From a virus, in IMG/VR virus record IMGVR_UViG_3300048686_000727, positions 1-37,221 of that record: a DNA stretch of 37,221 bases; one strand, given 5' to 3'. The notes under the pieces are model-generated. The model saw only the letters and a program-made list of their open reading frames with translations. It did not search any database and was not told where the DNA came from. Positions 2,950 to 35,805 of the stretch are shown here, in pieces (the first letter of the stretch is position 1; every line of letters begins with the position of its first letter). The position numbers and the translations under genes were made by a program.

Positions 2950-3514
2950 TTTTTTGTTTCTTTTCCCTAGAGTAGAATATATGATTACCGATTTTTGCGA
3001 CTTGCTTATAGGGCCATGCGGGATCAACTGTTAAATTGTGAAAAAATAATGTAGATTTAGGAACTACATTAGCATATGCATCATTTGCTAAAACATCATA
3101 AGCAATTTTTTCTGCTTGTTTATATCTAGGGCTATTTTTATTTAAAATACCTTTATCCTCACATACCCAACTAAACTGACACAATTTAGTTTTTATTAAC
3201 TCGCCGTCACTATCTACCTTTTTAACAGTAGTTGTTTGATATATTACTTGACATGGATTTTTACCAAACCCATGTTTGACTCTATTCATCACAACTCTAG
3301 CAACTGCGGCTTGCCCTAAAAGTGATTCACTGCCTGCTTCATAGTAAATGTTTTTGGCTAAACATGCAAGTTGTTTTGGATCAATGTGTACTAACTCTTT
3401 TACCTCAATGGGTTCTATTTTTTGAACCTCAGGTGTATATAAATTACTATGGGTTAATACCAAAAGTAAAAAAACAATAAGAGTAACAGTAATGGTTTTG
3501 TAATTTAATGTCAT
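2933..3514 (-). CDS. SleB-type cell wall hydrolase with N-terminal membrane anchor
   Basis: 193 residues. Residues 7-22 are a hydrophobic segment (TITVTLIVFLLLVLTH) after a short basic start. It acts as an uncleaved anchor or signal and places the enzyme in the periplasm. The catalytic domain (about 47-182) matches the Hydrolase_2/SleB family. It carries ACLAKNIYYEAGSES with the presumed catalytic Glu59, GQAAVARVVMNRV (68-79), CQFSWVCED (112-120), TLFFHN (155-160) and the closing NHIFYS (177-182). Such enzymes cleave peptidoglycan glycan strands. The ATG forms an ATGA overlap with the stop of the 608-residue structural gene. It could be the lysis enzyme in signal-arrest form, or a virion-associated lysin, given its place after structural genes. 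No holin or spanin is seen beside it. Confidence 0.85.
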   Translation of the reverse strand: MTLNYKTITVTLIVFLLLVLTHSNLYTPEVQKIEPIEVKELVHIDPKQLACLAKNIYYEAGSESLLGQAAVARVVMNRVKHGFGKNPCQVIYQTTTVKKVDSDGELIKTKLCQFSWVCEDKGILNKNSPRYKQAEKIAYDVLANDAYANVVPKSTLFFHNLTVDPAWPYKQVAKIGNHIFYSREKKQKNDSGT

Positions 3515-5337: not shown

Positions 5338-5339
5338 AA

Positions 5340-14071: not shown

Positions 14072-14335
14072 TCATCCATCGTGTTCCCCATACAGTTTAC
14101 CATTACTATATGCTCTTACTGCACGTATGTAATCAGTTGACGTTAAGTTATTATGTGTTAATACATTATCTACACAATTCCAAAAATCTACAATCACTTC
14201 TGGCTCGCATGTACATGATGATGTCGCTCTATATGGTACATACCCAAATGGCGCACAATCAAAATCACTATTTGTAGTTACTGTACTATTCACTAATCCT
14301 TGTGTAGTCATAATATAAAAATCGTATTGCATCAT
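14072..14335 (-). CDS. Small unknown protein with four cysteines
   Basis: 87 residues beginning with two ATG codons, in ATGA overlap with the fibrinogen-like gene. Cysteines are at 27, 41, 43 and 54 (FDCAPF, SCTCEPE, FWNCVDN), enough for one metal site or two disulfides. The first 25 residues are strand-like (YDFYIMTTQGLVNSTVTTNS) and the last 35 helical (VDNVLTHNNLTSTDYIRAVR). It is the last gene of the adhesin array before the nrd block, which may point to a role as fibre chaperone or accessory, but the sequence does not prove this. No family is recognised. Confidence 0.55.
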   Translation of the reverse strand: MMQYDFYIMTTQGLVNSTVTTNSDFDCAPFGYVPYRATSSCTCEPEVIVDFWNCVDNVLTHNNLTSTDYIRAVRAYSNGKLYGEHDG

Positions 14336-15084
14336 TTCACCATAATCATATATTGATTCGTGCCACCATATGTTAATCCGTTAGATACATAGGTACCGTT
14401 TTGAAAGTTACCACTGCCATCTGTTGTTGATCCACCACACCACGGTCCGGCATAATAGAAATTTGCACCACAATATGTAGTTACCATGCTAGTTGCAACT
14501 CCACCATAACCTGAAAATCCACAACAATCACGCATATAGTATATGTTGTTCGTTGTACCGGTTGTAGGGTACCCAATCGCACTTTGCATACCCGGGAAAT
14601 CAGCATTTCCGTAAACACTAGTGTTTGATTTTAAAACTGCGGTACTTCCACCTTGTTGAGTGTCGCTAGTAGTGAAGGTAGTATAATTCAAATCAAATCT
14701 TTTATAGATGAATGGACCCCAGGCATTATTGTTTATATTTGCTCTATTTCCAAATATAAATGAAGTGAACGTGGCATTTCCATTAAAATATGTCCACCAA
14801 CCTAATTGGTATGCTTGGCTGAAATCTTTTACGTTTCCTATTGCGCCGCCTGTCCAACCCCAGTTAGATCCATTATAATTAACCACAGACGGGTGTGAAC
14901 GTGCAACCATCATCCATCCCCCACCATCAGTTGTCATGTCGCACCATACAGGAACGCCGGCACTATTCGGGCCCTGTGGGTACAGCATATAGTAATTGTC
15001 TTGTCCTGCTAGGTTAGGAAAGGCAGCAAGCAACTCACTTGCTGTTTTATAATTACGATAGTTAGGACCAGAGAATACACTCAT
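14332..15084 (-). CDS. Fibrinogen-like domain adhesin
   Basis: 250 residues. After a short array-type start (MSVFSGPNYRNYKTASELL), residues 32-62 read YMLYPQGPNSAGVPVWCDM followed by TTDGGGWMMVARSH. This is the hallmark opening of fibrinogen-related C-terminal globular domains (YC/WCDM.T.GGGW). The rest is rich in Gly, Tyr, Asn and Trp, with a Cys-Cys pair in RDCCGFSGYGG, further cysteines in YCGANFYYAGPWCGG, and the end GGTNQYMIMVK. Fibrinogen-related domains bind glycans or acetyl groups in animals and bacteria, so a receptor-binding role is likely. It is the last adhesin of the array, with ATGA overlaps on both sides, and it lacks the RGRYGI tail of its LamG neighbours. Confidence 0.78.
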   Translation of the reverse strand: MSVFSGPNYRNYKTASELLAAFPNLAGQDNYYMLYPQGPNSAGVPVWCDMTTDGGGWMMVARSHPSVVNYNGSNWGWTGGAIGNVKDFSQAYQLGWWTYFNGNATFTSFIFGNRANINNNAWGPFIYKRFDLNYTTFTTSDTQQGGSTAVLKSNTSVYGNADFPGMQSAIGYPTTGTTNNIYYMRDCCGFSGYGGVATSMVTTYCGANFYYAGPWCGGSTTDGSGNFQNGTYVSNGLTYGGTNQYMIMVK

Positions 15085-16265
15085 ATTCCGTACAAACTCC
15101 TCTGAGCATTAAAGTTTTGTGCTATTTCTGCCGCTGATAATACTCTATTATAGGCTTTTGATGAATATATTTTTCCATTAAATCCATAACTACTAGAGTG
15201 ATATTCTAATCCTATTCTACCTTGACTACTTCCTGCACTTGACATATTACCAGTAGTTGTTGTTGCTGAATTAATTAACACACCATTCAGATATAAACTA
15301 ATTAGTCCTGTACTTGATGAACGAGTTGCCGCTATATATGCGTTGCCGGCATTTTGTAAAGATGTAGAACTACCAAGCAAATAGTCTGTTGTACCAAACC
15401 CTGCCCATACAGCCATATTTCCATGATATGACGCTAATAATTTCAAACCACATCTATAGTTTAAATCTGTACAGATTGAGGTTTGATGTGGACCATTTGC
15501 TGTTCCCAAATTAACAACTGATTCTAAAGTAACATCTCCAACCAAACTATCTAAATTAGATACTGTACAGTAATTGACTGCTCCGGCAAATGTAAAAGTG
15601 TTATCACTATTATAAGTTAAACTATTTGCAGTAACAGTATTAGTTGCTGTTAAATCTAATAAGGCTTGTGTATTTGATCTTGTTCCGTTCACAAATGGAG
15701 TTGCGAAAGACTGCTGTTCAATTTGAAAATTAGCCATATAGACGTTACCAGTCGGTGTAGTATCGCCGGATCCATCTGTAATAGTTCCTCTTACATAAAA
15801 CGGAGAACTTGCGGGGGCTATAGTTAACGTTTTTGAACCGTATCTCCATCCATTTGTGTTATTTGTGCTAACAAATGTATCGGATGCAACAGATGATACT
15901 ACACTTGCATAACCGCTAGTCCATACATCATTATACCAAATCATAGTTTGAGTGGTAGCGACATAATACCATCCTGAAATAGTGTAAGTATTGCCTGCTG
16001 TTATTGCAAAGTCACCTGCATAACCCCAGTAATTATTACCATTTGTTAATCTCCAAACAGGACCTTTTAATGCAAATGGTAAATTGTTTTTATCAGGGTA
16101 ATCTTGTGTTGAAACATTAGACCACCTTTCTCCACCAAATCCTAAATTTACTCCAGTAGTTGTGTTCGTTGTTGGTTTTCCTAGCCATGAACGGCCGGTA
16201 TTGTTCATGTCATAGTCGAACACTAATCCATTTGTAACTTGATTCGATCCAGTAACTACACTCAT
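15081..16265 (-). CDS. LamG-type adhesin with N-terminal CBM-like module (array member 10)
   Basis: 394 residues from ATG 16263-16265; the TTG just before it would add one residue and is not needed. The N-terminus SVVTGSNQVTNGLVFDYDMN is followed by a beta-sandwich, CBM-like module (about 45-195: FAITAGNTYTISGWYYVATT, NGWRYGSKTLTIAPASSPFY). Then come a linker QQSFATPFVNGTRSNTQALL and a LamG jelly roll (about 215-380, VTLESVVNLGTA ... LISLYLNGVLINS ... GRIGLEYHS). The end RVLSAAEIAQNFNAQRSLYGI is the array tag in diverged form. The linker is nearly the same as in the gene at 16459-17646, so these two are close relatives. The stop forms ATGA with the fibrinogen-like gene. Confidence 0.78.
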   Translation of the reverse strand: MSVVTGSNQVTNGLVFDYDMNNTGRSWLGKPTTNTTTGVNLGFGGERWSNVSTQDYPDKNNLPFALKGPVWRLTNGNNYWGYAGDFAITAGNTYTISGWYYVATTQTMIWYNDVWTSGYASVVSSVASDTFVSTNNTNGWRYGSKTLTIAPASSPFYVRGTITDGSGDTTPTGNVYMANFQIEQQSFATPFVNGTRSNTQALLDLTATNTVTANSLTYNSDNTFTFAGAVNYCTVSNLDSLVGDVTLESVVNLGTANGPHQTSICTDLNYRCGLKLLASYHGNMAVWAGFGTTDYLLGSSTSLQNAGNAYIAATRSSSTGLISLYLNGVLINSATTTTGNMSSAGSSQGRIGLEYHSSSYGFNGKIYSSKAYNRVLSAAEIAQNFNAQRSLYGI

Positions 16266-16462
16266 CAATCAACTCCCCATTTATTTAACGGGCAAATCTT
16301 AAACTTATATGTAGTTACATATTCAATGGGACAAGCACACATATCACATGTAGGTACCGAATTGTTTAGCATATTTTTCTCACAACTATTACACAAATCA
16401 ATTCTAATTTGTTTTTCTCCCTCAGTTGTTAATATTCCAAAATTTTCAACATCCTTAATCAT
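16265..16462 (-). CDS. Small six-cysteine zinc-ribbon-like protein inside the adhesin array
   Basis: 65 residues with cysteines at 24, 27, 39, 42, 44 and 57 (LCNSCEKN, CDMCACP, KICPLNKW). The C-x2-C / C-x2-C-x-C / CPL.KW pattern is that of a small phage and bacterial family I know only as an unknown zinc-ribbon-like protein (DUF6171-like). It lies between two LamG genes: ATGA overlap at its start and a one-base TGATG overlap at its end, so it is fully coupled to them. It might be a folding helper or regulator for the adhesins, or a passenger. Coding support is the clean fit between neighbours and the cysteine spacing. Confidence 0.7.
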   Translation of the reverse strand: MIKDVENFGILTTEGEKQIRIDLCNSCEKNMLNNSVPTCDMCACPIEYVTTYKFKICPLNKWGVD

Positions 16463-17646
16463 AGTCCATATACTCCTCTCAATCCATTAAAATTTTGAAG
16501 TACTTCATCTGCTGATAATTGTCTATTGTATATTTGAACTCTCGGCATAATTCCATTGTAATAATCATCTGCATTACTATGACCTAATCCTATTCTGCCA
16601 TTAGCAGCGGGATTAGTATTTGGAATATTTCCAATTGATCGTGATGTAAATAATGAACCATTTTTGTATATGGCTGAAGTACCGTTTATCTTCCAAGTAA
16701 AACACATGTTGACCCAAGTGTTTAAGGGTATGTTTGTACTAACTGATGAGAAAGACAAATCATTACTGCAACAATCTGATCCGTTACCTAATCTAAAGTA
16801 GAAAGTGTCGCTATAAGGACCTATCCACAACCAGTCTGCGGCATTAGGTACTGCATCTTCTCTATTGACAAAGTAGCCATTACCACCATTGTAACGTGTA
16901 GGATACAACCAGAAATTCATGGTGCCTTCTGTTTTATTTAATGCAGTAGATAATGGAATTGAAACGTATCCCGGGCTACTATATGTGAAACTAAATGTGT
17001 TATCTGAGTTGTATGTCAAATTTCCAGTAGTTGCTATGCTTCTAGAGGTAGCGTCTAATAATGCTTGAGTAGTGCTTCTTGATGGATAACAAAAAGGTGT
17101 TGCAAAACTTTGTTGTTCACATTGAACATCAGCCAACATAAAACTATGTGTGTATGCAGTATAATCATCGCCATCTTGCATAAACCAAAGTATTCTATTA
17201 CAGTTAGCAGGCGTTGTTAATGTGATTTTTGCTGTTTGCCAACCATCAATATCAGTAATACCTAATTGAGCAGTTGTAGCGAAACTCATTACAGACAAAA
17301 ACGTACTGCCATTATATGCTTGAATTTGAAATCTTAATGTCGGTGCGCCAGATAGTTTTTGATATTTTACAGAAAAACTATATGTTGTGCTTGCCGATAT
17401 GCCTGAATTAATATAAATGTTTTGTCGTGTGTTTGAATTAGTATCTGAAATAGTGCAAGCAAAAGGGCTAATAATAGTTCTTGTTCCAATATTTCCTTGA
17501 CCCGATCCGTCAATAGTCCAACTTGACCAATTAGGATCAACTAAATTTGTTGTGGGTGCACCCTTCCATGAGCGGCCGGTATTTTTCATGTCATAATCAA
17601 AGATTAATCCATTTGTAACTATTAATGGTCCACTTGATACACTCAT
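16459..17646 (-). CDS. LamG-type adhesin with N-terminal CBM-like module (array member 9)
   Basis: 395 residues. N-terminal tag SVSSGPLIVTNGLIFDYDMK, then a CBM-like beta-sandwich (about 35-185: ISASTTYSFSVKYQKLSGAP, HSFMLADVQCEQQSFATPF). A linker with RSTTQALLDATS follows, then a LamG domain (about 215-385: EGTMNFWLYPTRYNGGNG, NTWVNMCFTWKINGTSAIYK, NGRIGLGHSNADDYYNGIMP). It closes with RQLSADEVLQNFNGLRGVYGL. The codons of that end contain GGAG ten bases before the next ATG. The sandwich module resembles appendage modules that bind saccharides. The shared linker with member 10 points to duplication followed by divergence. Confidence 0.78.
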   Translation of the reverse strand: MSVSSGPLIVTNGLIFDYDMKNTGRSWKGAPTTNLVDPNWSSWTIDGSGQGNIGTRTIISPFACTISDTNSNTRQNIYINSGISASTTYSFSVKYQKLSGAPTLRFQIQAYNGSTFLSVMSFATTAQLGITDIDGWQTAKITLTTPANCNRILWFMQDGDDYTAYTHSFMLADVQCEQQSFATPFCYPSRSTTQALLDATSRSIATTGNLTYNSDNTFSFTYSSPGYVSIPLSTALNKTEGTMNFWLYPTRYNGGNGYFVNREDAVPNAADWLWIGPYSDTFYFRLGNGSDCCSNDLSFSSVSTNIPLNTWVNMCFTWKINGTSAIYKNGSLFTSRSIGNIPNTNPAANGRIGLGHSNADDYYNGIMPRVQIYNRQLSADEVLQNFNGLRGVYGL

Positions 17647-18914
17647 ATGCCATACCTCCCTCGCAATGCATTGAAGTTTTGTGCTACTTCATTTGCTGTT
17701 AATGCACGGTTGTATGTACTAAGTGCATAAATTGACCCATCAAAATATCTAGTGCTATAATGATGGCCTATTCTAACCATCGTAGGAGTGAATGTACCTG
17801 GTACAATACTAGAAGATAAGGTAGCGTCTAAAACACCATTTAAATAAATCCTCACAGTTGACCCGTCATATGTACCAGTCACATGATAAATCGTATTGTA
17901 TGCTAATACTGATGATATACAACCATCTTGAGTCGATGATGAAGTATTAGAAACAGTAAATCGTATTTGATTTGCTCCATACATTGACATCCAAGTTCTT
18001 AAATTATTCCAATCAGGACCAGTTTCACATGTAAAAATAGTATTGTAATTTGTTTGTGCCGAAGATATCTTAATTACTGCACTTACTGTTCCGGCTGACG
18101 CTCCTACTATTTGTGTATTAGGTAATGATATGTAATCACTAGATCCGTTAAAACTTAAATAATTACTAGTGTTACCCTTAAAAGGTACACCAAAATTCAT
18201 ATGTGCAACTTGAGCCGGATCAACAGAGTAGTTTTGATAGGCCCATGCTCCATTGCCGGGCCCTATTCCCGGTAATCCTACCAATACATATTCAGGTGCA
18301 TCGATATAATCGTTATCTAATGCAGTACCAGCTGGTAATCCTAAATCTAATAGTATAGCTCTAACGGTACTATTTCTATAACTATCCCTATGGCTTCCTG
18401 CCACTATGTATGTACAGTTTGGAAATGTTTTTTTAATAGTATTGTAATTTTCTACAAATTTTGCAAGTTCTCCCGTATAGCCTCCCGGAGCATCCGAACC
18501 AGCATAGGTGTCATAGCAATGCCCACTCAGTCTATATCCGGTAAAATAACTGTCTACAATCCAAGACGCAGTATCATTATTCCAAACCCATAAATGTAAT
18601 GATCTACTAGCATCGTATGTTTTAGTTCCACTAGTTACATTAAACCCCGGTGTAACACCTTGTCGTGATGCGGCCGCACCTCCATATGAACTTTCTGGAT
18701 AGTCAATGGAAAATGCAGTAAAATAAGTTAAATTACCTAGTCGCAACGTACTTGAAGAAGATGTAACGTCAGCCGGGTTAATTAAGTTTTTAATAAGTTG
18801 GGTAGCATTGTTGTAACCAACACATCCTGATGCATTAATGCATTTGGGATTGGCAACGTCCATTGAGAATGTTAGTCCACTAGTTGCAATGTTTGGACCG
18901 CTAGATATACTCAT
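17643..18914 (-). CDS. LamG-type adhesin with ILEI/FAM3-like insert (array member 8)
   Basis: 423 residues. Tag SISSGPNIATSGLTFSMDVA is followed by Cys25 and Cys31. Residues about 100-230 form an alpha/beta module: SLHLWVWNNDTASWIVDSYF, ELAKFVENYNTIKKTFPNCT, YIVAGSHRDSYRNSTVRAIL and LDLGLPAG, then PEYVLVGLPGIGPGNGAW. The order (N..TG/TA..VLDS..F, L..F, IV.AG..D......AI..LG, YV.VG..G) matches the ILEI/FAM3 fold (interleukin-like EMT inducer domain), which I recall also from phage fibres. A LamG domain follows (about 248-405, GTVSAVIKISSAQTNYNTIF ... TVRIYLNGVLDAT). It ends in RALTANEVAQNFNALRGRYGI. ATGA overlaps lie on both sides. The ILEI call is pattern-based inference. Confidence 0.75.
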   Translation of the reverse strand: MSISSGPNIATSGLTFSMDVANPKCINASGCVGYNNATQLIKNLINPADVTSSSSTLRLGNLTYFTAFSIDYPESSYGGAAASRQGVTPGFNVTSGTKTYDASRSLHLWVWNNDTASWIVDSYFTGYRLSGHCYDTYAGSDAPGGYTGELAKFVENYNTIKKTFPNCTYIVAGSHRDSYRNSTVRAILLDLGLPAGTALDNDYIDAPEYVLVGLPGIGPGNGAWAYQNYSVDPAQVAHMNFGVPFKGNTSNYLSFNGSSDYISLPNTQIVGASAGTVSAVIKISSAQTNYNTIFTCETGPDWNNLRTWMSMYGANQIRFTVSNTSSSTQDGCISSVLAYNTIYHVTGTYDGSTVRIYLNGVLDATLSSSIVPGTFTPTMVRIGHHYSTRYFDGSIYALSTYNRALTANEVAQNFNALRGRYGI

Positions 18915-19621
18915 ATGCTATACCTCCCGCGACATGCGTTAAAGTTTTGACTTACATTCGCTGCCGTAAAATAAGTGTTATATATTTTTGCTACTGAAAT
19001 ATTTCCTAACAGATTATAATAAACATCATTTGGATTATTGCCAATAGAAATAGCCATACCACTCCAAATAGTTGCCCCAGACCACGAGCCACCACCACCG
19101 CCTGATGCTCGCACAACATTGTCAATATAGATATAAGCGTCAGTGCTATTTCTAGTGCAGACTATATGATGCCATTGATTGTCAAAACAGTTGACACCTG
19201 TTGTTTGCAAACTCACGATATAACTAGCAGTAGGCCAGGCGTCAGTATTATACAATGAATATTGTATTGATCCATCGCCATGTATATATGATACTTGACC
19301 GTAATCAGGACAGATTAATCCGCCTACATATTTTCCTGCGCCAAGTCCAGGACTTTTTACCCAAATTTCATATGTTTGATTAGGCATAGCACCTATAGTA
19401 TTGACTGATGGAGCATATATAATATCGTCAACCCCATCCATAACCATTGAGCCTAAATTACTACTACTATATCCTACTCCATTTGTCAAACTTGCATTGA
19501 ATCCATTACCACTTATATCTGTCCATGTTGCTCCACTACCGGTATAACTGCGTGGGTTACCGGCATCATAACAAAATCTCAATCCATTTGTTACAATTGA
19601 TGGATTATAGCCGATGCTCAT
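18911..19621 (-). CDS. LamG-type adhesin (array member 7)
   Basis: 236 residues, a single jelly-roll domain. Tag SIGYNPSIVTNGLRFCYDAG, then NPRSYTGSGATWTDISGNGF, the strand VMDGVDDIIYAPS, TYEIWVKSPG, WHHIVCTRNSTDAYIYIDNV and the closing strand ISVAKIYNTYFTAANVSQNF before the end NACRGRYSI. The terminal Cys in NACRGRY is unique in the array. A short Gly/Ser run (ASGGGGGSWSG) occupies a loop where paralogues have other sequence. The end codons contain GGGAGG before the next ATG. It probably presents a saccharide-binding face, as LamG folds commonly do, but binding is not shown by the sequence. Confidence 0.8.
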   Translation of the reverse strand: MSIGYNPSIVTNGLRFCYDAGNPRSYTGSGATWTDISGNGFNASLTNGVGYSSSNLGSMVMDGVDDIIYAPSVNTIGAMPNQTYEIWVKSPGLGAGKYVGGLICPDYGQVSYIHGDGSIQYSLYNTDAWPTASYIVSLQTTGVNCFDNQWHHIVCTRNSTDAYIYIDNVVRASGGGGGSWSGATIWSGMAISIGNNPNDVYYNLLGNISVAKIYNTYFTAANVSQNFNACRGRYSI

Positions 19622-20292
19622 ATTCCATATCTCCCACGTATTGCGTTAAAGTTTTGTAAAATTTCACTTGGTGATAGTGTTCTGTTGTAAAGTTTTACTG
19701 GACCTATTCTTCCTTTAAAAGGATACCAAGTAAATGACGCTTCGCCGTCACCTATTCCAAAAGGATAACTAGGTGCATTTTGTAAACCAGTTAGTGTACT
19801 TTGCGTGTCTAACACCCCGTTAACATAAATGCTTGCTATTGTATTTGATCCACTTTGCTGAGTAGTGAAGCAAGTATAATACCAAGTGTTTAATGATAAT
19901 GTACTAGTTGCAAAAATCGTTTGCTGGCCGGATCCTATCGTGTTAGAAAAAATTAAACTATTACCGTTGTAAAATCCAAAGTACGGTAAATATGAACCCA
20001 TAAACATATTGTAGGTAGAAATATTTTGAGTACAATAAACCCATGCCTCCCATGTAGCACTCAAATTATTTGGACTAAAACTAGTTACTACTCTATCGTC
20101 TACCCCGTCATAAGTAAAATAACCATTAATACCGCTAGTATATACAGGACCATTTGTTAATATCCCGGTATATCCACTATTACTAATATCAAATAAAGTT
20201 GTTCCTGTACCAGGATAACTTCTTAAATTAACTGGATCAGAACAATACACTAGGCCATTCGTGATAATTGATGGTGAATGTTGTAATGCCAT
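19618..20292 (-). CDS. LamG-type adhesin (array member 6)
   Basis: 224 residues with the MALQHSPSIITNGL tag shared with two other members. It is followed by LRSYPGTGTTLFDISNSGYT and GILTNGPVYTSG, then YFTYDGVDDRVVTSF, ATWEAWVYCTQN, NTIASIYVNGVLDTQSTLTG and the closing KLYNRTLSPSEILQNFNAIR-GRYGI. A complete single LamG domain. It starts 2 bases after member 5, with GGAG seven bases upstream lying in the last codons of that gene (20300-20303). It ends in ATGA overlap with member 7, and GGGAG in its end codons precedes that ATG. Confidence 0.8.
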   Translation of the reverse strand: MALQHSPSIITNGLVYCSDPVNLRSYPGTGTTLFDISNSGYTGILTNGPVYTSGINGYFTYDGVDDRVVTSFSPNNLSATWEAWVYCTQNISTYNMFMGSYLPYFGFYNGNSLIFSNTIGSGQQTIFATSTLSLNTWYYTCFTTQQSGSNTIASIYVNGVLDTQSTLTGLQNAPSYPFGIGDGEASFTWYPFKGRIGPVKLYNRTLSPSEILQNFNAIRGRYGI

Positions 20293-20294
20293 GT

Positions 20295-20960
20295 TTATAC
20301 TCCAAATCTATAACGCATTGCATTATAATTCTGTGTAATCTGTGCTAATGTAAGTTTACCACTATACAAATAAGCAGTTGCAAGATAACCAAAAGGCTGA
20401 CTACCTCCTGCGGCACCTACCCACTTATGATAATTTCCACCTGCACTTTGAGCAACACTACTACCTACTTGACTACCATTGATATAAAATGTACTACCAT
20501 TTGTTGTATCACCTACAACAGTCCATTGTGCCCATATACTGTTCCATGGTGTTGTGTCATATCCTGAACTATTAAAGGCTGTACCGTTATTGTCATACAT
20601 ACCCAATGTTGTGCCACCTGATTGTATTAATAATGGATGATCATCGGCTGTCGTTCGCCATAATGTACGCCACTCTGCATTGTTTGATAATAATCTTGCC
20701 CATGCAATATATGTATAGCCTGCAGTAGGTAATTGTGGACCAGTTGTATCACATTCAATGTAATAACCACTAGTATTACAATTGAAACAAGGTATCCCAT
20801 TTAGTGTTGTATATGACGCACCACCTAACATGCTATGTGTAAACCCACTAATCATATCATATATTTTTGTGCCCGTGCCGGGATAACTTCTAGTATTACT
20901 AGCATCAAGTGCTAATAGAAGTCCTGTTGTATATGATGATGGATTATAATTTACGCTCAT
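20295..20960 (-). CDS. LamG-type adhesin, diverged (array member 5)
   Basis: 221 residues. Tag SVNYNPSSYTTGLLLALDAS, then NTRSYPGTGTKIYDMISGFT. It keeps the fold landmarks (YTYIAWARLLSNNAEWRTLW, TVVGDTTNGSTFYINGSQVG, GYLATAYLYSGKLTLAQITQ) but lacks the DG-V-DDYI strand of most paralogues. It ends NYNAMRYRFGV instead of RGRYGI. It is the most diverged single-domain member and may have a different ligand or come from a different source. The preceding gene's end overlaps its ATG as ATGA. Confidence 0.77.
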   Translation of the reverse strand: MSVNYNPSSYTTGLLLALDASNTRSYPGTGTKIYDMISGFTHSMLGGASYTTLNGIPCFNCNTSGYYIECDTTGPQLPTAGYTYIAWARLLSNNAEWRTLWRTTADDHPLLIQSGGTTLGMYDNNGTAFNSSGYDTTPWNSIWAQWTVVGDTTNGSTFYINGSQVGSSVAQSAGGNYHKWVGAAGGSQPFGYLATAYLYSGKLTLAQITQNYNAMRYRFGV

Positions 20961-21601
20961 ATTCCATATCTTCCTCGATATGCGTTAAAGTTTTGTAATA
21001 CTTCTGCGGCTGACAATACTCTATTGTAAATTAATAAAACGCCTATCTGTCCTGCTCCAAATTCTGCTGATCCCTGAGATGAACCTATAGCGAACCCATT
21101 CGGGCCTGCTGATGCATTTGCATTTGGTCCTGCGGTTACTGATCCGTTAACATAGAGAGCCGCCGAATCACTTGATGAGTCCCAAGTTGCTGCATATATT
21201 CTCCAATTTGTGTCTCCTGGGCCGGCGCCTGCGCTACTGACCCAACCCTCAGCATAGTAATTCTCTGTAGTGCCTGACCAATGGCCCATCAACCAGTTAT
21301 TATTTTTTGCAGAAATTAGTCTATTGTTTGCTCCGCCTGTGTATCTTGATGCTCCAAATATAGTATAGGTTGAAGTTGCTAAATTAATAGGTATATCAAT
21401 ATAATCATTTACACCGTCTGTAACAAACACTCCACCATTACTTGAAGAATATGTTGCACCATTGACAAGTGTACCTGTGTATCCATTGCCTGAAGCATCA
21501 CGAATAGTGGTTCCACTTCCAGGATAAGTTCTAGTATTAGCAGGATCAAAACATGCAAGTAATCCATTAGTAACGATTGATGGTGAGTGTTGTAGTGCCA
21601 T
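20957..21601 (-). CDS. LamG-type adhesin (array member 4)
   Basis: 214 residues with the MALQHSPSIVTNGL tag, LACFDPANTRTYPGSGTTIR, ASGNGYTGTLVNGATYSSSN and DGVNDYIDIPINLA. Later landmarks are TIFGASRYTGGANNRLISAK, TWDSSSDSAALYVNGSVTAG and IGVLLIYNRVLSAAEVLQNF, with the end NAYRGRYGI. A compact, intact jelly roll. Its first 30 residues are nearly identical to those of members 3 and 6, whereas the middle differs strongly. That is the pattern expected if ends are conserved or exchanged by recombination. It starts 2 bases after member 3 and overlaps member 5 as ATGA. Confidence 0.8.
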   Translation of the reverse strand: MALQHSPSIVTNGLLACFDPANTRTYPGSGTTIRDASGNGYTGTLVNGATYSSSNGGVFVTDGVNDYIDIPINLATSTYTIFGASRYTGGANNRLISAKNNNWLMGHWSGTTENYYAEGWVSSAGAGPGDTNWRIYAATWDSSSDSAALYVNGSVTAGPNANASAGPNGFAIGSSQGSAEFGAGQIGVLLIYNRVLSAAEVLQNFNAYRGRYGI

Positions 21602-21603
21602 GA

Positions 21604-22287
21604 TTAAATTCCATATCTCCCGCGCATTGCATCAAAGTTTTGTAAAACTTGTGTAGAAGTTAGTGCTATATTATATACTCTTGTAACACCTATTCTGCCA
21701 TTTAAAAAATACGATGAGCCCGGACCATATGCTCCTATATACTGTCCTGTTTGCCCTGTAGGAATAGTACCAGTAAGTCCGCTAGCACTTGCTGCGACTA
21801 CTGTATTTACATAGGTGTATTTTACTCCACTAGCATAGGTAGAAACTATATGATTCCATGCATTTGCTGTACAACGTGTTGATGATGTAAATGTTAAATC
21901 CGTATTGTTTAGACCCATTGTTCTAAAATAGAATGTGCCGTCACCGTTAAAAAAATGACTATACTGTGTATTAACTGCACCTTTTTCAAACAGAAATCCA
22001 TTTTGTGCTAAAGTAGTAGGATATACCCAAGATTCTAGTGTTAAGGCTTGTGTATCAAATACATTTGAAGTATTGGATACCCAATAATCATTAACACCAT
22101 CAAATGTGAAATAACTTGATGCGCCGTTACTAGTAAATGTCGGTCCATTAGTTAGTGTGCCATTGTTACCGGTAATACTTACATCTGCCCAAGTTGTGCC
22201 ACTCCCAGGATAACTGCGTGGATTTCCTGCATCCACACACAGTATTAATCCACTAGTAACAATTGAGGGAGAATGTTGTAATGCCAT
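21604..22287 (-). CDS. LamG-type adhesin (array member 3)
   Basis: 227 residues with tag MALQHSPSIVTSGL, then DAGNPRSYPGSGTTWADVSI, YFTFDGVNDYWVSNTSN, ALTLESWVYPTT, WNHIVSTYASGVKYTYVNTV and RIGVTRVYNIALTSTQVLQN, ending FDAMRGRYGI. All strands of a typical LamG_3 domain are recognisable. The ATG follows the stop of the 91-residue gene by one base, with GGAAG in that gene's last codons. The next gene starts 2 bases after this one's TAA rather than in an ATGA overlap. Confidence 0.82.
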   Translation of the reverse strand: MALQHSPSIVTSGLILCVDAGNPRSYPGSGTTWADVSITGNNGTLTNGPTFTSNGASSYFTFDGVNDYWVSNTSNVFDTQALTLESWVYPTTLAQNGFLFEKGAVNTQYSHFFNGDGTFYFRTMGLNNTDLTFTSSTRCTANAWNHIVSTYASGVKYTYVNTVVAASASGLTGTIPTGQTGQYIGAYGPGSSYFLNGRIGVTRVYNIALTSTQVLQNFDAMRGRYGI

Positions 22288-22288
22288 T

Positions 22289-22564
22289 TTATACTTCCAT
22301 TGGTATTGGTTCAGACCACTCGGGAGTTGCCATTACGTCCAAGATTTCATCGTGTGACATATAAGGACCTTTAGTAGTCAATGTTTGTACACACGGTGGA
22401 ATACCAGCCACTGTTACCCACTTGACTAATGTTTTAAGTTTGTCAACACTAAGTCTGCATGTTTCTGCTGATGTTTGTTCAACTTGATCAAAATTAATTT
22501 TATTTAATTCTGATACATCAAAAATTACATATGTTAGTCCGTTATTTGCTGTAACCATATTCAT
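22289..22564 (-). CDS. Small unknown phage protein embedded in the adhesin array
   Basis: 91 residues. YVIFDVSELNKINFDQVEQT (12-31) leads to SAETCRLSVDKLKTLVKWVT, then KGPYMSHDEILDVMATPEW at about 65-83. The motif order IFDVSEL..I.FD.V..TS..TCR.S.D..KT.VKW ... GPY.H.EIL....TPEW is one I recall from unknown proteins near fibre genes of marine phages. It has an alpha/beta look and two cysteines (36 and 58), with no signal peptide. A good GGAG lies just before ATG 22562-22564. It sits between two LamG genes, so a role as chaperone or adaptor of the adhesins is possible but unproven. Confidence 0.7.
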   Translation of the reverse strand: MNMVTANNGLTYVIFDVSELNKINFDQVEQTSAETCRLSVDKLKTLVKWVTVAGIPPCVQTLTTKGPYMSHDEILDVMATPEWSEPIPMEV

Positions 22565-22579
22565 TCTCCTATATTGTAT

Positions 22580-23296
22580 TTAGATTCCGTATCTTCCACG
22601 AAGTGCATTAAAGTTAGTAAGAACTTCACTTGCTGTCAATGCTCTATTGTATAAACTATAATAAGGTATAGCCCCCACAAAAGCATAAACACCGCTAGAG
22701 TAACCACCTATACTTACTGGGTTCGTTGTGTTTTGACCAGAGACCACATTAGTATCACTAAAAATTTCTGTACCATTATAATACATCTTTCTAGTAGTAC
22801 CGTCGTGAGTCGCAGTCACATTCTGCCAAATATTAAAAGTAGAAGTATAAGTATAGGCTGATGCAACTCCGTCGTTGCCGCCTGTACCTTGCGTTCTAAA
22901 AACTAGAGGAGAACAATAATAAACTTCCCAAGATCCGTCCCATTTAGTCATCGCTGTACAAACCGAAGTAGTAATTTTTAACCACATTGAAACAGACATT
23001 CCGTTTTGGCATAAACAATCTTGTAGTGTTGTGCTGTTGGCAATATTAACAACGTTATTAACAGTACCATCAGACGCTCCTAAATGTCTATCAAACATCA
23101 TCCATTTAGTTGTACTGTCATATCCGCTAGTACTGCCGGCACTAGGACCTGTAAAGTTTGTCATAGTACCATGATTATTATTGCCACTTACATCATACCA
23201 AGTATTGCCTGTGCCGGGATAACTTCTAGGATTCATTGAATCCAGTAGAACAGTAAGACCAGACGTTACGATTGAGGAGTTATAATTTACGCTCAT
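22580..23296 (-). CDS. LamG-type adhesin (array member 2)
   Basis: 238 residues. Tag SVNYNSSIVTSGLTVLLDSM, then NPRSYPGTGNTWYDVSGNNN, HGTMTNFTG and a longer than usual first loop up to WMMFDRHLGASDGTVNNVVN. Core landmarks are LQDCLCQNGMSVSMWLKITT, NIWQNVTATHDGTTRKMYYN and ALTASEVLTNFNALRGRYGI. A CLC pair near residue 91 is peculiar to this member. After its TAA there is a 15-base gap with a fresh Shine-Dalgarno for the 91-residue gene, the only true spacer inside the array. Confidence 0.8.
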   Translation of the reverse strand: MSVNYNSSIVTSGLTVLLDSMNPRSYPGTGNTWYDVSGNNNHGTMTNFTGPSAGSTSGYDSTTKWMMFDRHLGASDGTVNNVVNIANSTTLQDCLCQNGMSVSMWLKITTSVCTAMTKWDGSWEVYYCSPLVFRTQGTGGNDGVASAYTYTSTFNIWQNVTATHDGTTRKMYYNGTEIFSDTNVVSGQNTTNPVSIGGYSSGVYAFVGAIPYYSLYNRALTASEVLTNFNALRGRYGI

Positions 23297-23907
23297 ACAC
23301 CATATCTCCCTCGTAACGCATTAAAATTCTGAGTTGACTCTGCCGCTGTTATCGCTCTATTATAAATCATAATGACAGCCACGCTACCTGCCATCTGCCA
23401 TGATGAGGGATATAACCACCATTCATAATAAGTCCACGGCACCGTTACAAAATCTACATTCTTTGCTTCCCACATGTGGTAAGCACCATTTCTATAATTT
23501 ATGGGCGTTGTAGGATTAGTTGTTAGATTTAAATCTACATAGTTTGTAGGTGATCCGCAGTTTGAATTGTAATATGGATTACCATAACTTGCACTTAAAT
23601 AATAATTATTATTTTGATTTCCACGTACCCATAATTCTTGGGTATCAGAAGTTGAATACCATATGACAACACTACAAGTAGTAGTGACACCTGTAATAGA
23701 TGATGCTCTAGTGAATCCTTGAGTAGACCCGTCTAGTGTGAACTTTCCTGATGCCCATGATGGACTGTTTGTAAGAGTATGATGATTGTCGTACCCGCTT
23801 ACATCATTCCAAGTACTACCGGTGCCAGAATAAGAACGGGGATTCGCTGCATCTAAGCAGCAAATCAGCCCATTCGTTACAATACTTGAGTTATATGAAA
23901 TACTCAA
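23293..23907 (-). CDS. LamG-type adhesin, first of the array, TTG start (array member 1)
   Basis: 204 residues. The start codon is TTG at 23905-23907, supported by AAAGGAGA seven bases upstream and by the alignment of SISYNSSIVTNGLICCLDAA with the tags of other members. No ATG lies near. It continues NPRSYSGTGSTWNDVSGYDN, KFTLDGSTQGFTRASS, CSVVIWYSTSDTQELWVRGN, a Tyr/Trp-rich stretch (VPWTYYEWWLYPSSWQ) and AITAAESTQNFNALRGRYGV. It lacks the usual Y-V-N-G strand and is the shortest member. It starts 12 bases after the stop of the 1457-residue fibre. ATGA overlap follows, with GGGAG in the end codons. Confidence 0.77.
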   Translation of the reverse strand: MSISYNSSIVTNGLICCLDAANPRSYSGTGSTWNDVSGYDNHHTLTNSPSWASGKFTLDGSTQGFTRASSITGVTTTCSVVIWYSTSDTQELWVRGNQNNNYYLSASYGNPYYNSNCGSPTNYVDLNLTTNPTTPINYRNGAYHMWEAKNVDFVTVPWTYYEWWLYPSSWQMAGSVAVIMIYNRAITAAESTQNFNALRGRYGV

Positions 23908-23919
23908 TTGGACTCTCCT

Positions 23920-26900
23920 TTACGCAAATGTTGCGTTTAGAGTGTACCATTGAGTTGTTGATGAAGCAATGAATTCAATTCTAGAGCCAACTGGCTGTGA
24001 ATACGCAGCATTTGTTGCACCTGAGTTTATTGCGCCGCCGCTTGGTGGATAAACGTTCAATGCATTTGCGCCGTTATTAACAACAATCATACGCATACCT
24101 GCCACTGTTGCCGGTAACACAACACCAGTGCTTGAAGATACGGTTGATACTATGTTAATAGGACGAGTCAATGATGTTGCTGTGCCTTGTGTTGAGCCAG
24201 CGGCAGTAATGCTTGATGTTACACCATATGCTACATAACCACCACTGGTTGCAAAGTAAATATTGCCACCTGCATCAACTGCAATCATTGGTATGCCGGA
24301 TACATCGTTAACACTAAAGATGTTGCCTGACATACTATCTGTAATACTAAACAACTGTCCTGCGTTTCCACTCCATGCAAGAGTACCGCCGTTTAACATC
24401 TGAGATGTAATAGTGTTTGCACCGTTGGGCGCAACATATGCCAAATTACTCTTAACTGTTGTGTTACCAACATAACTGTTACCTGCTACGCCAATGCCGC
24501 CTGCAACTGTCAATGCGCCGGTAGTTGTACTTGTTGCATTAGTTGTACCACTAACTATTACATTAGCACCTGTGATATTTCCACTAGCAGTTAATGTTGT
24601 AAATCCACCTGTACCAGAGTTTGCATATAGATTACCGGCGGTCACGTTACCTGATACTGCAAGACTTGACAATGTACCCACACTAGTAATATTAGGTTGT
24701 GCCGCAGTTGTTACAGTGCCGGCAGTAGCAGCACTACCACTTACAGATCCAGTAATGGTTGAACTTACAGTTAATCCAGACAATGTACCTACTGATGTAA
24801 TGTTAGGTTGTGCGGCTGTTGTTACAGTACCTGCAGTTGTTGCCGCACCTGTCAATGCGCCAACAAACGTAGTTGATGTAACGCTTGAAAGACCTGCAAC
24901 TGTTGTTACTGTTGAACCAAGCGTTAATGCTGTGCTGCCTAATGTTACACTTGCATTTGCTAATCTTGCTTGAGCAAGAGTACCTGAACTAATGTTACTT
25001 GCGTTAAGTGCAGTTAACCCACTACCATTACCAGTAAAAATACCAGTGTTTGCTGTGACATTGGCTGCAGTAATGTTACCATTTACACCTAAACTTGTTA
25101 ACGTACCTACACTAGTAATATTAGGTTGTGCGGCTGTTGTAACTGTTCCTGCAGTACCTGCAGTAGCAACATTCAAGTTAGCAACTTGTGTTGTAGATAC
25201 TACTGTAAACGGTGCTGTACCTGTAGCAACATTACTTTCTAGCGTACTGGCAACAACCTTGCCTGCAGTGTTTAGGTTGCCTGCACTAGCATTGCCTGAT
25301 ACAGCCAAACTTGACAATGTACCTAAACTTGTAACGTTGGGCTGACTTGCCGTTGTTAATGAACCAGCCACTGTTGTAAATACACCTGCACTACCACCGA
25401 TATTACCAACGTTAGCATTACCGCTTACGTTTAATGTACCTAATGTACCCACACTTGTTAGGCTAGATGTTACAATTCCTGAATTAAGCGTAGTACCTGT
25501 TAAGTTAGCAGCATTTGCAGTTATTGCGACATTACTTGCCGCAGTTAGTTGACCTTGGTTGTTAACAGTAAATGTAGCAACTCTATCACCATTGCCATAA
25601 CTTGTAGCCGTAACTGCGGTGTTTGATATACTGAATGTTGAGCCAGTTAATGTTAAACCAGTTCCTGCTTGATATGTACCCGCACCTGAGAACTGTGTAA
25701 AATCAATATTGTCAGTGCCAATAGTAGTTACAGTAGATGTTTGTACCCAGCCTGTGTTATCATATAGTGTACCGCCGGTTACGAATACGAAGTCACCTGC
25801 TTCTACTTCTGGAACACTATTGAAGTCTGTGGCACGAACGATTGTTGTACTATTCGCCCATGTATAGATACCGTTCTGTACAGCGTTTGCCTGATTCTTA
25901 ACAAGAATACGTGTACCTGCTGTCTGTACGTTTACCCCGTCGATTAAATTGAATGATCCAGTTGTGACTAAGTTTGCATTCACTCCACCTGTACCGTTGT
26001 TATAAGTAATCGTACCACTAGTGATATTAGCAAGAGTATCCGGTGTTGCAGCCTGAACACTATCGTGTACGTTTAGACCTTGGGCAACATCGTCAACATA
26101 TTGTTTTGTTGCAGCATCTGTGCTTGCTGTTGGAGTCCCTACACTTGTTATTTTTGCATTCGCAACATCTACGGTACCTGTTCCAGTAGGTACAAGTGAA
26201 ATATTTTGATCTGTACCAGTTGCAGTAATTGTCACACCTGTAGTTCTACCCTGAATTAAGTTTGTAACAACGTTAGCATTAGATTGAATATTTCCACTTG
26301 ACACTAAACTTGATAATGTACCTAAACTTGTGACGTTGGGTTGTGCGGCTGTAGTTAATGTACCAGTTAATAAACTTGCACCAATTGTACCACTGTTTGC
26401 ATATACATTACCTGCTGTGACATTTCCTGTAACTGATGCACTTGTAAGTGTACCTAAACTAGTTACGTTAGGTTGGCTTGCTGTAGTTAATGTACCAGTT
26501 AATAAACTTGCACCAATTGTACCACTGTTTGCATATACATTACCGCTTGTTGTGTTTCCACTTACGCTTAAACTTGTTAATGTGCCTGTGCTTGTAATGT
26601 TGGGTTGGCTTGCTGTAGTTAGTGATCCTGCTATAGTTGTAAATACGCCAGCTGCAGCGCCAATATTACCTGCGTTAGCATTACCGGTAACGGTTAATGA
26701 TGATAGACTACCTACACTTGTAATATTAGGTTGTGCCGCAGTAGTTAGAGTACCAGTTAAATAATTTGCACTTACTAAGTTTCCACCTGATACATTACCA
26801 GAAGTAACGTTTCCAGTGACTGCTAGACTTGTCAATGTTCCCAAAGAAGTTATATTAGGTTGACTTGCTGTTGTTAACGTACCTGCAACTGTCGTGAATA

Positions 26901-28293
26901 CACCTTCAGTTGCCCCAATGTTACCAACGTTAGCATTACCTGTTACGCTTAAAGCGCCGGTTGTTGTTAAGTTGCCACCACTTACGTTGCCGGTAGCAAC
27001 AATCAAACCACCTGTACCTAAATTACCTACGTTGGCATTACCTGTTGCATTTAATGTACCTGTAACATTAACACCGGTATCTGTTACGACTACAACGTTT
27101 GAAACTCCAGTTACACTAACTGTTACATTACCATTGGCTGCAACCTTAACATTACTATTACCATTTTGAATACTTGTTGCGTCAATACCTGTAAGTTGAC
27201 TACCATTACCAATAAAATAATTTGCAACTAAATTACCATCTGCATTTCTAACAGGAATAGTATTTGCTGTTGCTGCCCCGTCTGTATTAAATCCATCTAA
27301 TAAATCGGCATTAAGATTTGCAACTAATGATGTACTTGAAACTGCGATTGGGGCACCAGATCCTTTTGTAGATACTAGTTGTCCAGAAGTAGTAATGTTT
27401 CCACCACTTACATTTCCCGTAGCAGATACCAACCCCGAAGTATTTAAATTTCCGCCTGCAACGTTACCAATAGCAGAAAGAACACCGCCGGTAGTAATAT
27501 TACCACCAGATATATTTCCAGTAGCATTTACAACACCGTTGGCATTAAGATTTTGTGCCAATACATTGCTTGTTGCGTTAATATTACCAGTTACAGTTAA
27601 ATTGTTTGTTGCAGTATCAAAAGTTAAATTGGCACTTGCACCAAAATCACCGGCATTGTTAAATTGAAGTTGCGTGTTAGAGCCTGCGGGCTGTTGTAAG
27701 TCCCATGGATTACCGTTGCTATAATATAAATTGTCTGTCTTTAATCCACCAACTCTTAAGTTACCTAACGTGTTAAAAGTTACAACATTGGCAGCAACGC
27801 TAACATTGCTACCCATTGCGAATTCTGCATTACTTGTGTCCCAACCCATAAATGCATCGACGGGAGCAGAAGTATAATAGTGTAAAAGTGTACCGCGATC
27901 ATATCCGTCATTACTTGTAAGTGCATTTCCATTAGGGCCGCCACCAAGTTCAATTATTGGATCTTCTACTGCAAATGTTGTGACGTTGATATATGTAATA
28001 TTACCATTAACAACAAGATCACCATCGACTGTTGCATTTCCTTGAACAGTTAATAATGGGGTAGTCAGTAAACCTGTTGTTTTATTAAATGTAAAATTAG
28101 CATTACCTCCAAGAGCACCCTGATCATTAAAAAATACTTGGGTATTACTTCCGCCTACAGTGGGGAAGCCTTGGGTCGATCCATTGGCTAATTTGACTGT
28201 TAAAACGTCAGTATTGCTTAAAAATATTGTTCCTTTTCCAGCTGGGGGTGTTGGAACACTATTCGCTGCTTCTTGTTTTAATATAAGACTCAT
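23920..28293 (-). CDS. Long tail-fibre-like beta-repeat protein (1457 aa)
   Basis: 1457 residues, dominated by Gly/Asn/Thr/Ala/Ser/Val. The N-terminus SLILKQEAANSVPTPPAGKG followed by TIFLS is typical of T4-like environmental phage fibres. Nine copies of a repeat close to LTTA.QPN(I/V)TSLGTLSSL.V.GN are spread through the protein. At about 715-885 lies a module with STDAATKQYVDDVAQGLNVH, TRILVKNQANAVQNGIYTW and the closing DNIDFTQFSGAGTYQAGTGL, known from phage fibres. The C-terminus (about 1350-1457, GVVLPATVAGMRMIVVNN ... ALNVYPPSGGAINSG ... RIEFIASSTTQWYTLNA) is a conserved cap. GAGGA lies before the ATG and a late-promoter-like octamer 36 bases upstream. Likely a trimeric fibre, location on the virion unknown. 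Confidence 0.82.
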   Translation of the reverse strand: MSLILKQEAANSVPTPPAGKGTIFLSNTDVLTVKLANGSTQGFPTVGGSNTQVFFNDQGALGGNANFTFNKTTGLLTTPLLTVQGNATVDGDLVVNGNITYINVTTFAVEDPIIELGGGPNGNALTSNDGYDRGTLLHYYTSAPVDAFMGWDTSNAEFAMGSNVSVAANVVTFNTLGNLRVGGLKTDNLYYSNGNPWDLQQPAGSNTQLQFNNAGDFGASANLTFDTATNNLTVTGNINATSNVLAQNLNANGVVNATGNISGGNITTGGVLSAIGNVAGGNLNTSGLVSATGNVSGGNITTSGQLVSTKGSGAPIAVSSTSLVANLNADLLDGFNTDGAATANTIPVRNADGNLVANYFIGNGSQLTGIDATSIQNGNSNVKVAANGNVTVSVTGVSNVVVVTDTGVNVTGTLNATGNANVGNLGTGGLIVATGNVSGGNLTTTGALSVTGNANVGNIGATEGVFTTVAGTLTTASQPNITSLGTLTSLAVTGNVTSGNVSGGNLVSANYLTGTLTTAAQPNITSVGSLSSLTVTGNANAGNIGAAAGVFTTIAGSLTTASQPNITSTGTLTSLSVSGNTTSGNVYANSGTIGASLLTGTLTTASQPNVTSLGTLTSASVTGNVTAGNVYANSGTIGASLLTGTLTTAAQPNVTSLGTLSSLVSSGNIQSNANVVTNLIQGRTTGVTITATGTDQNISLVPTGTGTVDVANAKITSVGTPTASTDAATKQYVDDVAQGLNVHDSVQAATPDTLANITSGTITYNNGTGGVNANLVTTGSFNLIDGVNVQTAGTRILVKNQANAVQNGIYTWANSTTIVRATDFNSVPEVEAGDFVFVTGGTLYDNTGWVQTSTVTTIGTDNIDFTQFSGAGTYQAGTGLTLTGSTFSISNTAVTATSYGNGDRVATFTVNNQGQLTAASNVAITANAANLTGTTLNSGIVTSSLTSVGTLGTLNVSGNANVGNIGGSAGVFTTVAGSLTTASQPNVTSLGTLSSLAVSGNASAGNLNTAGKVVASTLESNVATGTAPFTVVSTTQVANLNVATAGTAGTVTTAAQPNITSVGTLTSLGVNGNITAANVTANTGIFTGNGSGLTALNASNISSGTLAQARLANASVTLGSTALTLGSTVTTVAGLSSVTSTTFVGALTGAATTAGTVTTAAQPNITSVGTLSGLTVSSTITGSVSGSAATAGTVTTAAQPNITSVGTLSSLAVSGNVTAGNLYANSGTGGFTTLTASGNITGANVIVSGTTNATSTTTGALTVAGGIGVAGNSYVGNTTVKSNLAYVAPNGANTITSQMLNGGTLAWSGNAGQLFSITDSMSGNIFSVNDVSGIPMIAVDAGGNIYFATSGGYVAYGVTSSITAAGSTQGTATSLTRPINIVSTVSSSTGVVLPATVAGMRMIVVNNGANALNVYPPSGGAINSGATNAAYSQPVGSRIEFIASSTTQWYTLNATFA
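26349..26544. repeat. 64-bp perfect direct repeat, 132-bp period, within the 1457-aa fibre gene
   Basis: Bases 26349-26412 and 26481-26544 are identical for 64 bases, and the 132-base period keeps the reading frame (44 codons). Each copy encodes the NVYANSGTIGASLLTGTLTT stretch of the fibre repeat. Such near-identical units in otherwise diverged repeats point to recent in-frame duplication. Confidence 0.8.
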
Positions 28294-28329
28294 GTTTTTT
28301 CCTCGGTACAGTTTTTACTAGTAATATGT

Positions 28330-28337
28330 TATTTATC
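28330..28337 (-). promoter_or_regulatory. T4-type late promoter-like site (GATAAATA) before the 1457-aa fibre gene
   Basis: The minus strand reads TTTGATAAATAACATATTAC in the 51-base gap between the 122-residue gene and the fibre gene. The octamer lies 36 bases before the ATG, leaving room for a short leader with GAGGA. It is identical to the octamers before iscU and the 1023-residue fibre gene. Confidence 0.55.
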
Positions 28338-28344
28338 AAAAAAC

Positions 28345-28713
28345 TTAGACTTCGATAAGTACTCCCAAAACTTCAAGATTGCCCTCGACATCTAGTGGTA
28401 TTCCAAAAAGTCCTTGATAATTATTCGGTATTACTAGCGTTTCTCCCGAATAAATTACAATTGGCATAGGAGCCGGAGACTGTGATGTTGCAGGATTGAC
28501 AAAAGAAAGAATACCATTTCCATCCGTAGAAATAATATCACCTGCGTTGCCACCAGACACACGCAGGTTTCCTATGCTTCCTAAATCGCTTATTCCCGTG
28601 ACAGTAATAGTCGATGCGTAAAAGTTTCCACCGGTTACATTGCCAGTGGATGCATCAAGTGTGATATTTCCAGCCGTTAAACCGTTCTTAACGTTAAAGT
28701 ATTTTACTGTCAC
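28345..28713 (-). CDS. Mini-fibre protein (122 aa), GTG start
   Basis: 122 residues. The start is GTG at 28711-28713: its product MTVKYFNVKNGLTAGNITLD aligns with the start MTTKNFVVKNGLTVGNVTID of the 768-residue fibre, and no in-frame ATG fits. The middle (NLRVSGGNAGDIISTDGNGI, then LSFVNP) and end (ETLVIPNNYQGLFGIPLDVE, then GNLEVLGVLIEV) match residues about 60-135 of the 539-residue fibre. It is therefore a stand-alone N-terminal/cap unit without shaft repeats. It could be a truncated relic or a real short spike; the clean ends and intact frame favour a working gene. A 54-base gap precedes it. Confidence 0.72.
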   Translation of the reverse strand: MTVKYFNVKNGLTAGNITLDASTGNVTGGNFYASTITVTGISDLGSIGNLRVSGGNAGDIISTDGNGILSFVNPATSQSPAPMPIVIYSGETLVIPNNYQGLFGIPLDVEGNLEVLGVLIEV

Positions 28714-28767
28714 AGTTCCATATTCCCTGTAAAGTTTACTAAATTGTAAAAATGTGTCAAATCATAA
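28714..28767 (-). other. 54-base intergenic gap before the mini-fibre gene
   Basis: The largest clear gap in the window. On the minus strand it holds TTGACA and, 16 bases on, TAAACT (four of six matches to a sigma-70 -10 element). A perfect 10-base palindrome, CATAATTATG (28763-28772), overlaps the end of the 768-residue fibre gene. There is no GC-rich hairpin with a T-run, so I see no factor-independent terminator. Promoter use is only a possibility. Confidence 0.25.
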
Positions 28768-31074: not shown

Positions 31075-31083
31075 TTTCTATCC

Positions 31084-32703: not shown

Positions 32704-32706
32704 ATC

Positions 32707-35778: not shown

Positions 35779-35797
35779 TTTTTTATCCTATTACTTA

Positions 35798-35805
35798 TAT
35801 TTATC
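35798..35805 (-). promoter_or_regulatory. T4-type late promoter-like site (GATAAATA) before the 1023-aa fibre gene
   Basis: The minus strand reads TTTTGATAAATATAAGTAAT in the 35-base gap between two fibre genes. The octamer lies 20 bases before ATG 35776-35778, with AGGAT between. It is the third exact copy in the window. Confidence 0.55.

Follow-up and report, generated by a model that had tools for sequence, protein, structure and literature searches.

The window analysed here is a 37,221-base record of an uncultured virus (IMGVR_UViG_3300048686_000727), in which ten tightly packed LamG genes, g1 to g10, occupy positions 15081–23907 of the minus strand (Table 1). All genes of the array lie on that strand. 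Read from the fibre side, the gene order is a series of tail-fibre-like genes ending with a 1457-amino acid (aa) protein, g10, g9, p91, g8 to g2, p65, g1, a fibrinogen-related gene (fib), p87, p149, nrdA, and nrdB, with the array sitting between the last tail-fibre gene and the p149-nrdA genes. The ten adjacent small genes of 204–423 aa, the two small open reading frames (ORFs) between them, and the fibrinogen-like ORF that a first-pass annotation had described from the letters alone were all present. Many neighboring genes share an ATGA overlap or sit a few bases apart. g1 is listed with a TTG start, but an ATG comes immediately after it, and this ATG at 16265 is probably the true start. L numbers (L007, L103, L126, etc.) label the loci and contigs used for comparison.

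Table 1. Features of the LamG gene array and its borders in the window.
Feature	Description	Coordinates	Strand	Matches and remarks
p87	small ORF paired with fib in relatives	14072..14335	-	fib-p87 pair kept in L103, L112, L126–L133
fib	fibrinogen-C-related module, 250 aa	14332..15084	-	PF00147, 24.1 bits (cut-off 22), residues 28–87
g1	N-tag, carbohydrate-binding module (CBM)-like insert, LamG body, 395 aa	15081..16268	-	Laminin_G_3 1.5e-12; body 76% to L103 5263–6483, insert unrelated
p65	small Cys-rich ORF, coupled to g2	16265..16462	-	phrog_13558 5.9e-9; also adjoins arrays in L007, L113, L114, L103
g2	N-tag, insert, LamG body, 395 aa	16459..17646	-	Laminin_G_3 1.1e-16
g3	N-tag, unclassified insert (~18180–18665), LamG body, 423 aa	17643..18914	-	Laminin_G_3 2.6e-24
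g4	one LamG module, 236 aa	18911..19621	-	Laminin_G_3 6.7e-11
g5	one LamG module, 224 aa	19618..20292	-	Laminin_G_3 9.6e-19; body 58% to L126 5802–6473
g6	one LamG module, 221 aa	20295..20960	-	Laminin_G_3 2.2e-9
g7	one LamG module, 214 aa	20957..21601	-	Laminin_G_3 1.5e-10; body 68% to L126 2317–2961
g8	one LamG module, 227 aa	21604..22287	-	Laminin_G_3 4.6e-21; AlphaFold2 pLDDT 93.1; VIA-align Z 22 to AbnA domain 4
p91	small ORF	22289..22564	-	28–70% identity to copies in other arrays
g9	one LamG module, 238 aa	22580..23296	-	Laminin_G_3 8.2e-17
g10	divergent LamG module, 204 aa, TTG start	23293..23907	-	phrog_24074 3.5e-15; without Pfam match
Fibre gene	tail-fibre-like repeat protein, 1457 aa, borders array	23920..28293	-	phrog_697 'structural protein' 2.9e-22; phrog_6942 'tail fiber', weak

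Nine of the ten proteins (g1–g9) exceeded the curated Pfam cut-off of 27.6 bits for Laminin_G_3 (PF13385), with scores of 38.1–86.5 bits, whereas g10 was linked to the other modules through common PHROG families only. The AlphaFold2 model of g8, built from a 101-sequence alignment, is a confident jelly roll (predicted template modeling score 0.91 in addition to the pLDDT in Table 1). Its best solved match was domain 4 of the arabinanase AbnA (193 residues, model positions 13–222), and many other LamG-type domains followed; Z scores to LamG-type domains were 20–22. For g3, the model showed a LamG-like body at moderate confidence and a low-confidence insert. The LamG jelly roll proposed by the first-pass annotation is thus supported by the profile matches and, at these two levels of confidence, by both models. 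Matches to neurotoxin and sialidase domains in the PDB were read as a shared jelly-roll fold only; at 9–18% identity, they gave no indication of a toxin or an enzyme. The fibrinogen-like gene matches the predicted domain, but its PF00147 score is barely over the cut-off and the match spans only 58 of 221 profile positions. In its relative in L135, PF00147 is covered over positions 6–192 and the module is fused to LamG.

We compared the array with those of related viruses. The L103 locus is syntenic (NrdA 88%, fib 73%, p87 80%) and contains clear orthologues of only g1 and g8, both in other positions. L126 carries at least twelve LamG modules located on both sides of the fib-p87 pair, run lengths range from 1 to 10 across loci, and in L044 and L067 a fibre gene of the same type ends directly before p149-nrdA, i.e., the site is near-empty. 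For every one of the ten LamG bodies, the top-scoring match is a module of another virus and not a paralogue from the window, with a slight margin in the case of g9. In a quickly built tree of 134 bodies with six arrays labeled, the array labels changed 28 times compared to 27.1 for shuffled labels, indicating that genes in one array are no closer to each other than to the pool; since support is low at many forks, the tree speaks to the lack of clustering and not to individual branches. The number, order, and identity of the modules therefore differ between relatives, as the first-pass annotation had anticipated, instead of the same ten genes being fixed in all of them. Taken together, these sequence comparisons show that the array modules did not arise by recent duplication in place; each has been exchanged individually, as a member of a pool common to many phages. 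No near-identical DNA was found in cultured phages by megablast. When synteny was anchored on NrdA in 80 loci, most were not comparable because the gene context upstream of nrdA differs.

Other tandem genes were seen near this site. In L082 (NrdA 86% identical), four tandem genes of a different family (1684–5550; 315–320 aa, with starts like MSITITGGF) precede p149-nrdA, and tandem small-gene arrays at this site may not be limited to LamG. At the opposite flank of the fibre gene, L067 has tandem genes of 278–368 aa (1051–6554) with the start MATLKNTTINDTGY in common; one of them contains a Gly_rich_2 domain.

Exchange has also taken place within genes. In g1, g2, and g3, a second domain is inserted between the N-terminal tag and the LamG body. 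Among 84 proteins of this insert type, 73 pairs had inserts at least 45% identical and bodies less than 35% identical, 20 pairs showed the reverse, and 9 pairs were high in both. The g2 insert, for example, is 74% identical to that of L107 (body 31%), whereas the g2 body is 83% identical to that of L007 (insert 28%). Nucleotide identity drops sharply at the border between insert and body, as in L110 versus L112, where it falls from 92% to ~ 40% within 50 codons, and the sharpest visible crossovers lie at this border, inside genes. These identity patterns show the N-terminal insert domain and the LamG body recombining as separate units. The CBM_4_9 profile (PF02018) did not match the g1 or g2 inserts themselves, although it matched 4 of 42 insert-type relatives (best 1.8e-7). 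The ~ 160-aa g3 insert (motifs LHLWVWNNDT and GHCYD) was seen outside the window in just three viral loci (L101, L220, and L221; 48–56%), where it sits on different LamG bodies. An ILEI/FAM3 identity for this insert was considered, but Pfam, PHROG, and PDB sequence searches gave no convincing match and the insert model was poor, and we do not claim it.

The ends of the genes are the feature that the first-pass annotation had emphasized, as identical sequences serving as a common docking element and as recombination sites. The shared ends are real and recur in at least 560 viral loci, too many for chance, but they are not identical: mean identity among the array genes is 51% over the first 30 aa and 57% over the last 25 aa, compared to 27% for the centres, which is the level of the shuffled control. 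The N-terminal tag of g3 is without the RSYxGxG part, and the C-terminal tag is altered in g1 (QRSLYGI), g2 (RGVYGL), g4 (RGRYSI), and g6 (MRYRFGV). In the g8 model, strand 14–19 comes from the N-tag and the last strand (196–205) and helix 211–225 from the C-tag, so that both tags are part of the common fold. The C-terminal motif is also found at the end of single LamG proteins encoded on the chromosome in Bacteroidetes contigs, and of phage proteins in which several modules are fused. LamG proteins with this motif, some in tandem, are also encoded in Bacteroidetes, Saccharibacteria, and Parcubacteria genome contigs (L227–L304).

We detected no signal of gene conversion at the tags in the window, either in codon identity or in exact matches. 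At identical residues, observed codon identity was close to that expected from codon usage (N-tag 0.455 versus 0.411; C-tag 0.505 versus 0.490; centre 0.445 versus 0.436), and no two paralogues matched exactly over more than 19 nt. A role of the ends as recombination sites within this genome is not supported by these values or by the location of the sharpest crossovers. In other arrays, the N-tag DNA of a few gene pairs is as much as 90% identical although their centres are unrelated (4 of 223 within-locus pairs, 1.8%, versus 10 of 14,853 between-locus pairs, 0.07%), so that occasional exchange at the N-tag is possible there, with none visible in the window. The targets of diversity-generating retroelements have a near-identical template and variable repeats together with a reverse transcriptase. 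Repeats in the array are 60–76% alike over 95 nt, not near-identical (no dedicated search for such an element was made, and the window is a fragment).

We then considered the C-tag at the level of codons, calling an end coupled when its stop codon and the start of the following gene are only a few bases apart. At coupled ends, AGA or AGG encodes the conserved arginine of the tag 93% of the time (n = 147), against an expectation of 69% derived from the same loci (p = 8e-13). For the glycine just before it, GGA or GGG is used in 94% (n = 104), against an expected 47% (p = 5e-25). Uncoupled ends, which provide an internal control, were without this bias (arginine AGR 72% versus 74% expected; glycine GGR 60% versus 49%). 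The p-values treat the sequences as independent and so overstate the strength of the effect. Shine–Dalgarno-like sequences were present at 112 of 150 coupled ends, at 19 of 72 ends where the next gene is 7–60 bases away, and at 20 of 36 ends where no next gene was found. g1 and g2 are without the RGR residues yet retain AGGAG in the DNA. The codon data thus show that an abutting gene holds, in its 3′ end, a Shine–Dalgarno site and an overlapping start for the gene that follows. This embedded bias at a conserved C-terminal end is new here.

The genomic surroundings point to tail structures. Genes resembling tail fibres, long ORFs that are baseplate candidates, and a gene for a PAAR protein lie near the array, and in the cultured Flavobacterium phage immuto, two tail-fibre genes enclose three LamG genes and a p91 homologue, in that order. 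p91 itself, which matched no Pfam or PHROG family, adjoins LamG arrays in many contigs and belongs to the same family as immuto gp048 and a protein of S-SKS1. The array is preceded by a run of long, repeat-rich fibre-like genes (23920–37221; 1457, 768, 539, 1023, and 351 aa) that are mutually 34–40% alike; the 1023-aa protein also matches a head-decoration PHROG. Farther away, an IscU-like Fe-S scaffold gene of 128 aa was recognized by eye at 823–1209, and several relatives have similar genes close to nrdA or nrdB. We infer that the array encodes proteins of the virion surface that are produced together with the tail fibre and bind host or environmental glycans, and that it diversifies this binding. 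The host recognition or virion decoration suggested by the first-pass annotation is plausible. Structural neighbors of the LamG modules bind glycans (AbnA is an arabinan-degrading enzyme whose domain 4 was solved with an arabino-oligosaccharide), although a common fold does not imply a common function.

In our preferred reading, to which we assign a probability of about two in three, the locus, in an uncultured tailed phage, is an array of virion adhesins that was assembled horizontally next to the tail-fibre gene and is neutral with regard to expression. Its LamG modules are exchanged one by one within a pool common to many phages, and insert domain and LamG body are also exchanged inside genes. 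The 3′ end of each abutting gene supplies the Shine–Dalgarno site and start to its successor, and because the ribosome-binding signal lies in the end of each gene, cassettes would be position-independent and could be gained, lost, or reordered with translation kept. A more general version, which we advance only tentatively and at somewhat less than even odds, is a cassette system in which the conserved 3′ end is both part of the fold and the ribosome-binding site and start for any successor, such that adhesins from a community pool are gained, lost, and reordered in one slot without regulatory change; this would be integron-like for phage adhesins, without an integrase. Several points weigh against the preferred reading. 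Virion location and binding are drawn from gene context and the annotation of relatives; the 'structural protein' label on immuto gp050/051 is without mass-spectrometry backing in the paper examined, which omits immuto; and S-PM2p176 is structural in RefSeq but hypothetical in LN828717. LamG folds also mediate protein–protein contacts. The codon-bias counts are not phylogenetically independent, and the ORF starts are mechanical.

The mechanism of the first-pass annotation, in which genes duplicated in tandem on the spot and then diverged while gene conversion kept their ends identical or the ends acted as recombination sites, would account for the tandem order, the similar ends, and the excess of within-locus N-tag pairs in some other arrays. 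However, codon identity at the ends is at the chance level in the window, exact matches are short, and the paralogues are less alike than the modules of other viruses, with array labels unclustered on the tree; duplication is largely refuted for this array and improbable as its origin. The contrast of conserved ends and variable centres, together with a fibre gene bordering the array in several loci, would also fit ends that act as a docking element, plugging every module into one virion site (e.g., the tip of the 1457-aa fibre) for which modules compete or which they share. We consider this unlikely: the ends form part of the fold itself (its first and last strands and its terminal helix), they are found in fused and single chromosomal proteins, and the ribosome-binding site of the next gene explains part of the codon conservation of the C-tag, so that a special docking role is not needed.

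Two further alternatives concern where the products act. The modules may instead be Hoc-like decorations of the capsid or neck that attach to glycans or particles in the environment, and not receptor-binding proteins; PHROG lists the recurrent match phrog_8510 as a virion structural protein in its head and packaging category, and several copies per genome fit decoration. With tail-fibre-like, PAAR, and candidate baseplate neighbors here, and two tail-fibre genes enclosing the LamG genes of immuto, we regard this as doubtful. Products that never join the virion, being secreted or intracellular (e.g., superinfection or biofilm factors), would be compatible with the occurrence of the same module in bacterial genome contigs. 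The overlap-coupled array adjoins a fibre gene, however, and related cyanophage proteins are annotated as virion structural, making a non-virion role very improbable.

The preferred reading of an assembled adhesin array can be set beside known systems. T4-like cyanophages encode LamG or concanavalin A-like structural proteins with the same module and C-terminal motif (S-SKS1 SWZG_00005/07/08; S-PM2p176, T4-GC 864), with a p91-family gene nearby in S-SKS1 and CBM_4_9 plus two LamG stretches in S-PM2p176, but there the modules are fused into large proteins of 470–1058 aa, whereas those of the window are separate coupled genes. The closest cultured arrangement found was gp049–gp051 of Flavobacterium phage vB_FspM_immuto, tandem separate LamG genes beside the p91-family gene and flanked by tail-fibre genes; it differs in having only three modules, ~ 34% identity to g8, and no fibrinogen-type gene seen. 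The T4-family gp37–gp38 pair, in which a small adhesin gene for a separate tip adhesin follows the fibre gene, is alike in layout, homology aside, but has a single gene and a different fold. In S-PM2, the LamG protein d174/p176 adjoins d175/p177, an adhesin-block gene of which a variant allele reached 100% in each of three replicate chemostats; the sweep was in this neighbor and not in the LamG gene (PMC9910659). Tail fibres and spikes are especially rich in fragments common to otherwise unrelated phage proteins (Smug et al, 2023; PMC10684548), a study whose main text is without laminin, concanavalin, or lectin and which did not measure gene-level cassette arrays with embedded ribosome-binding sites. 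The multi-tailspike clusters of Ackermannviridae likewise provide several receptor-binding proteins per genome that are exchanged between phages, but they comprise at most four large tailspikes joined in a branched complex (PMC11414711, PMC8432352), compared to ten small LamG modules here. We found no description of tandem LamG phage gene arrays in the open-access literature. The fold is thus ordinary and the organization unusual: on the known theme of modular phage receptor-binding regions, gene-level cassettes from a shared pool and built-in translational coupling are the distinctive traits.

Phages must keep altering what they bind, and most known solutions change one fibre gene. Small, exchangeable LamG cassettes appear to be present in hundreds of phages from the environment, and they are most likely binders of receptors or glycans. 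If they are binders, shuffling of whole genes and half genes would explain rapid change of the binding repertoire, and the codon-level tie of a conserved protein end to the ribosome-binding site of the next gene offers a concrete, testable reason for free reshuffling. The cultured phage immuto carries a short version of the array that is open to bench work.

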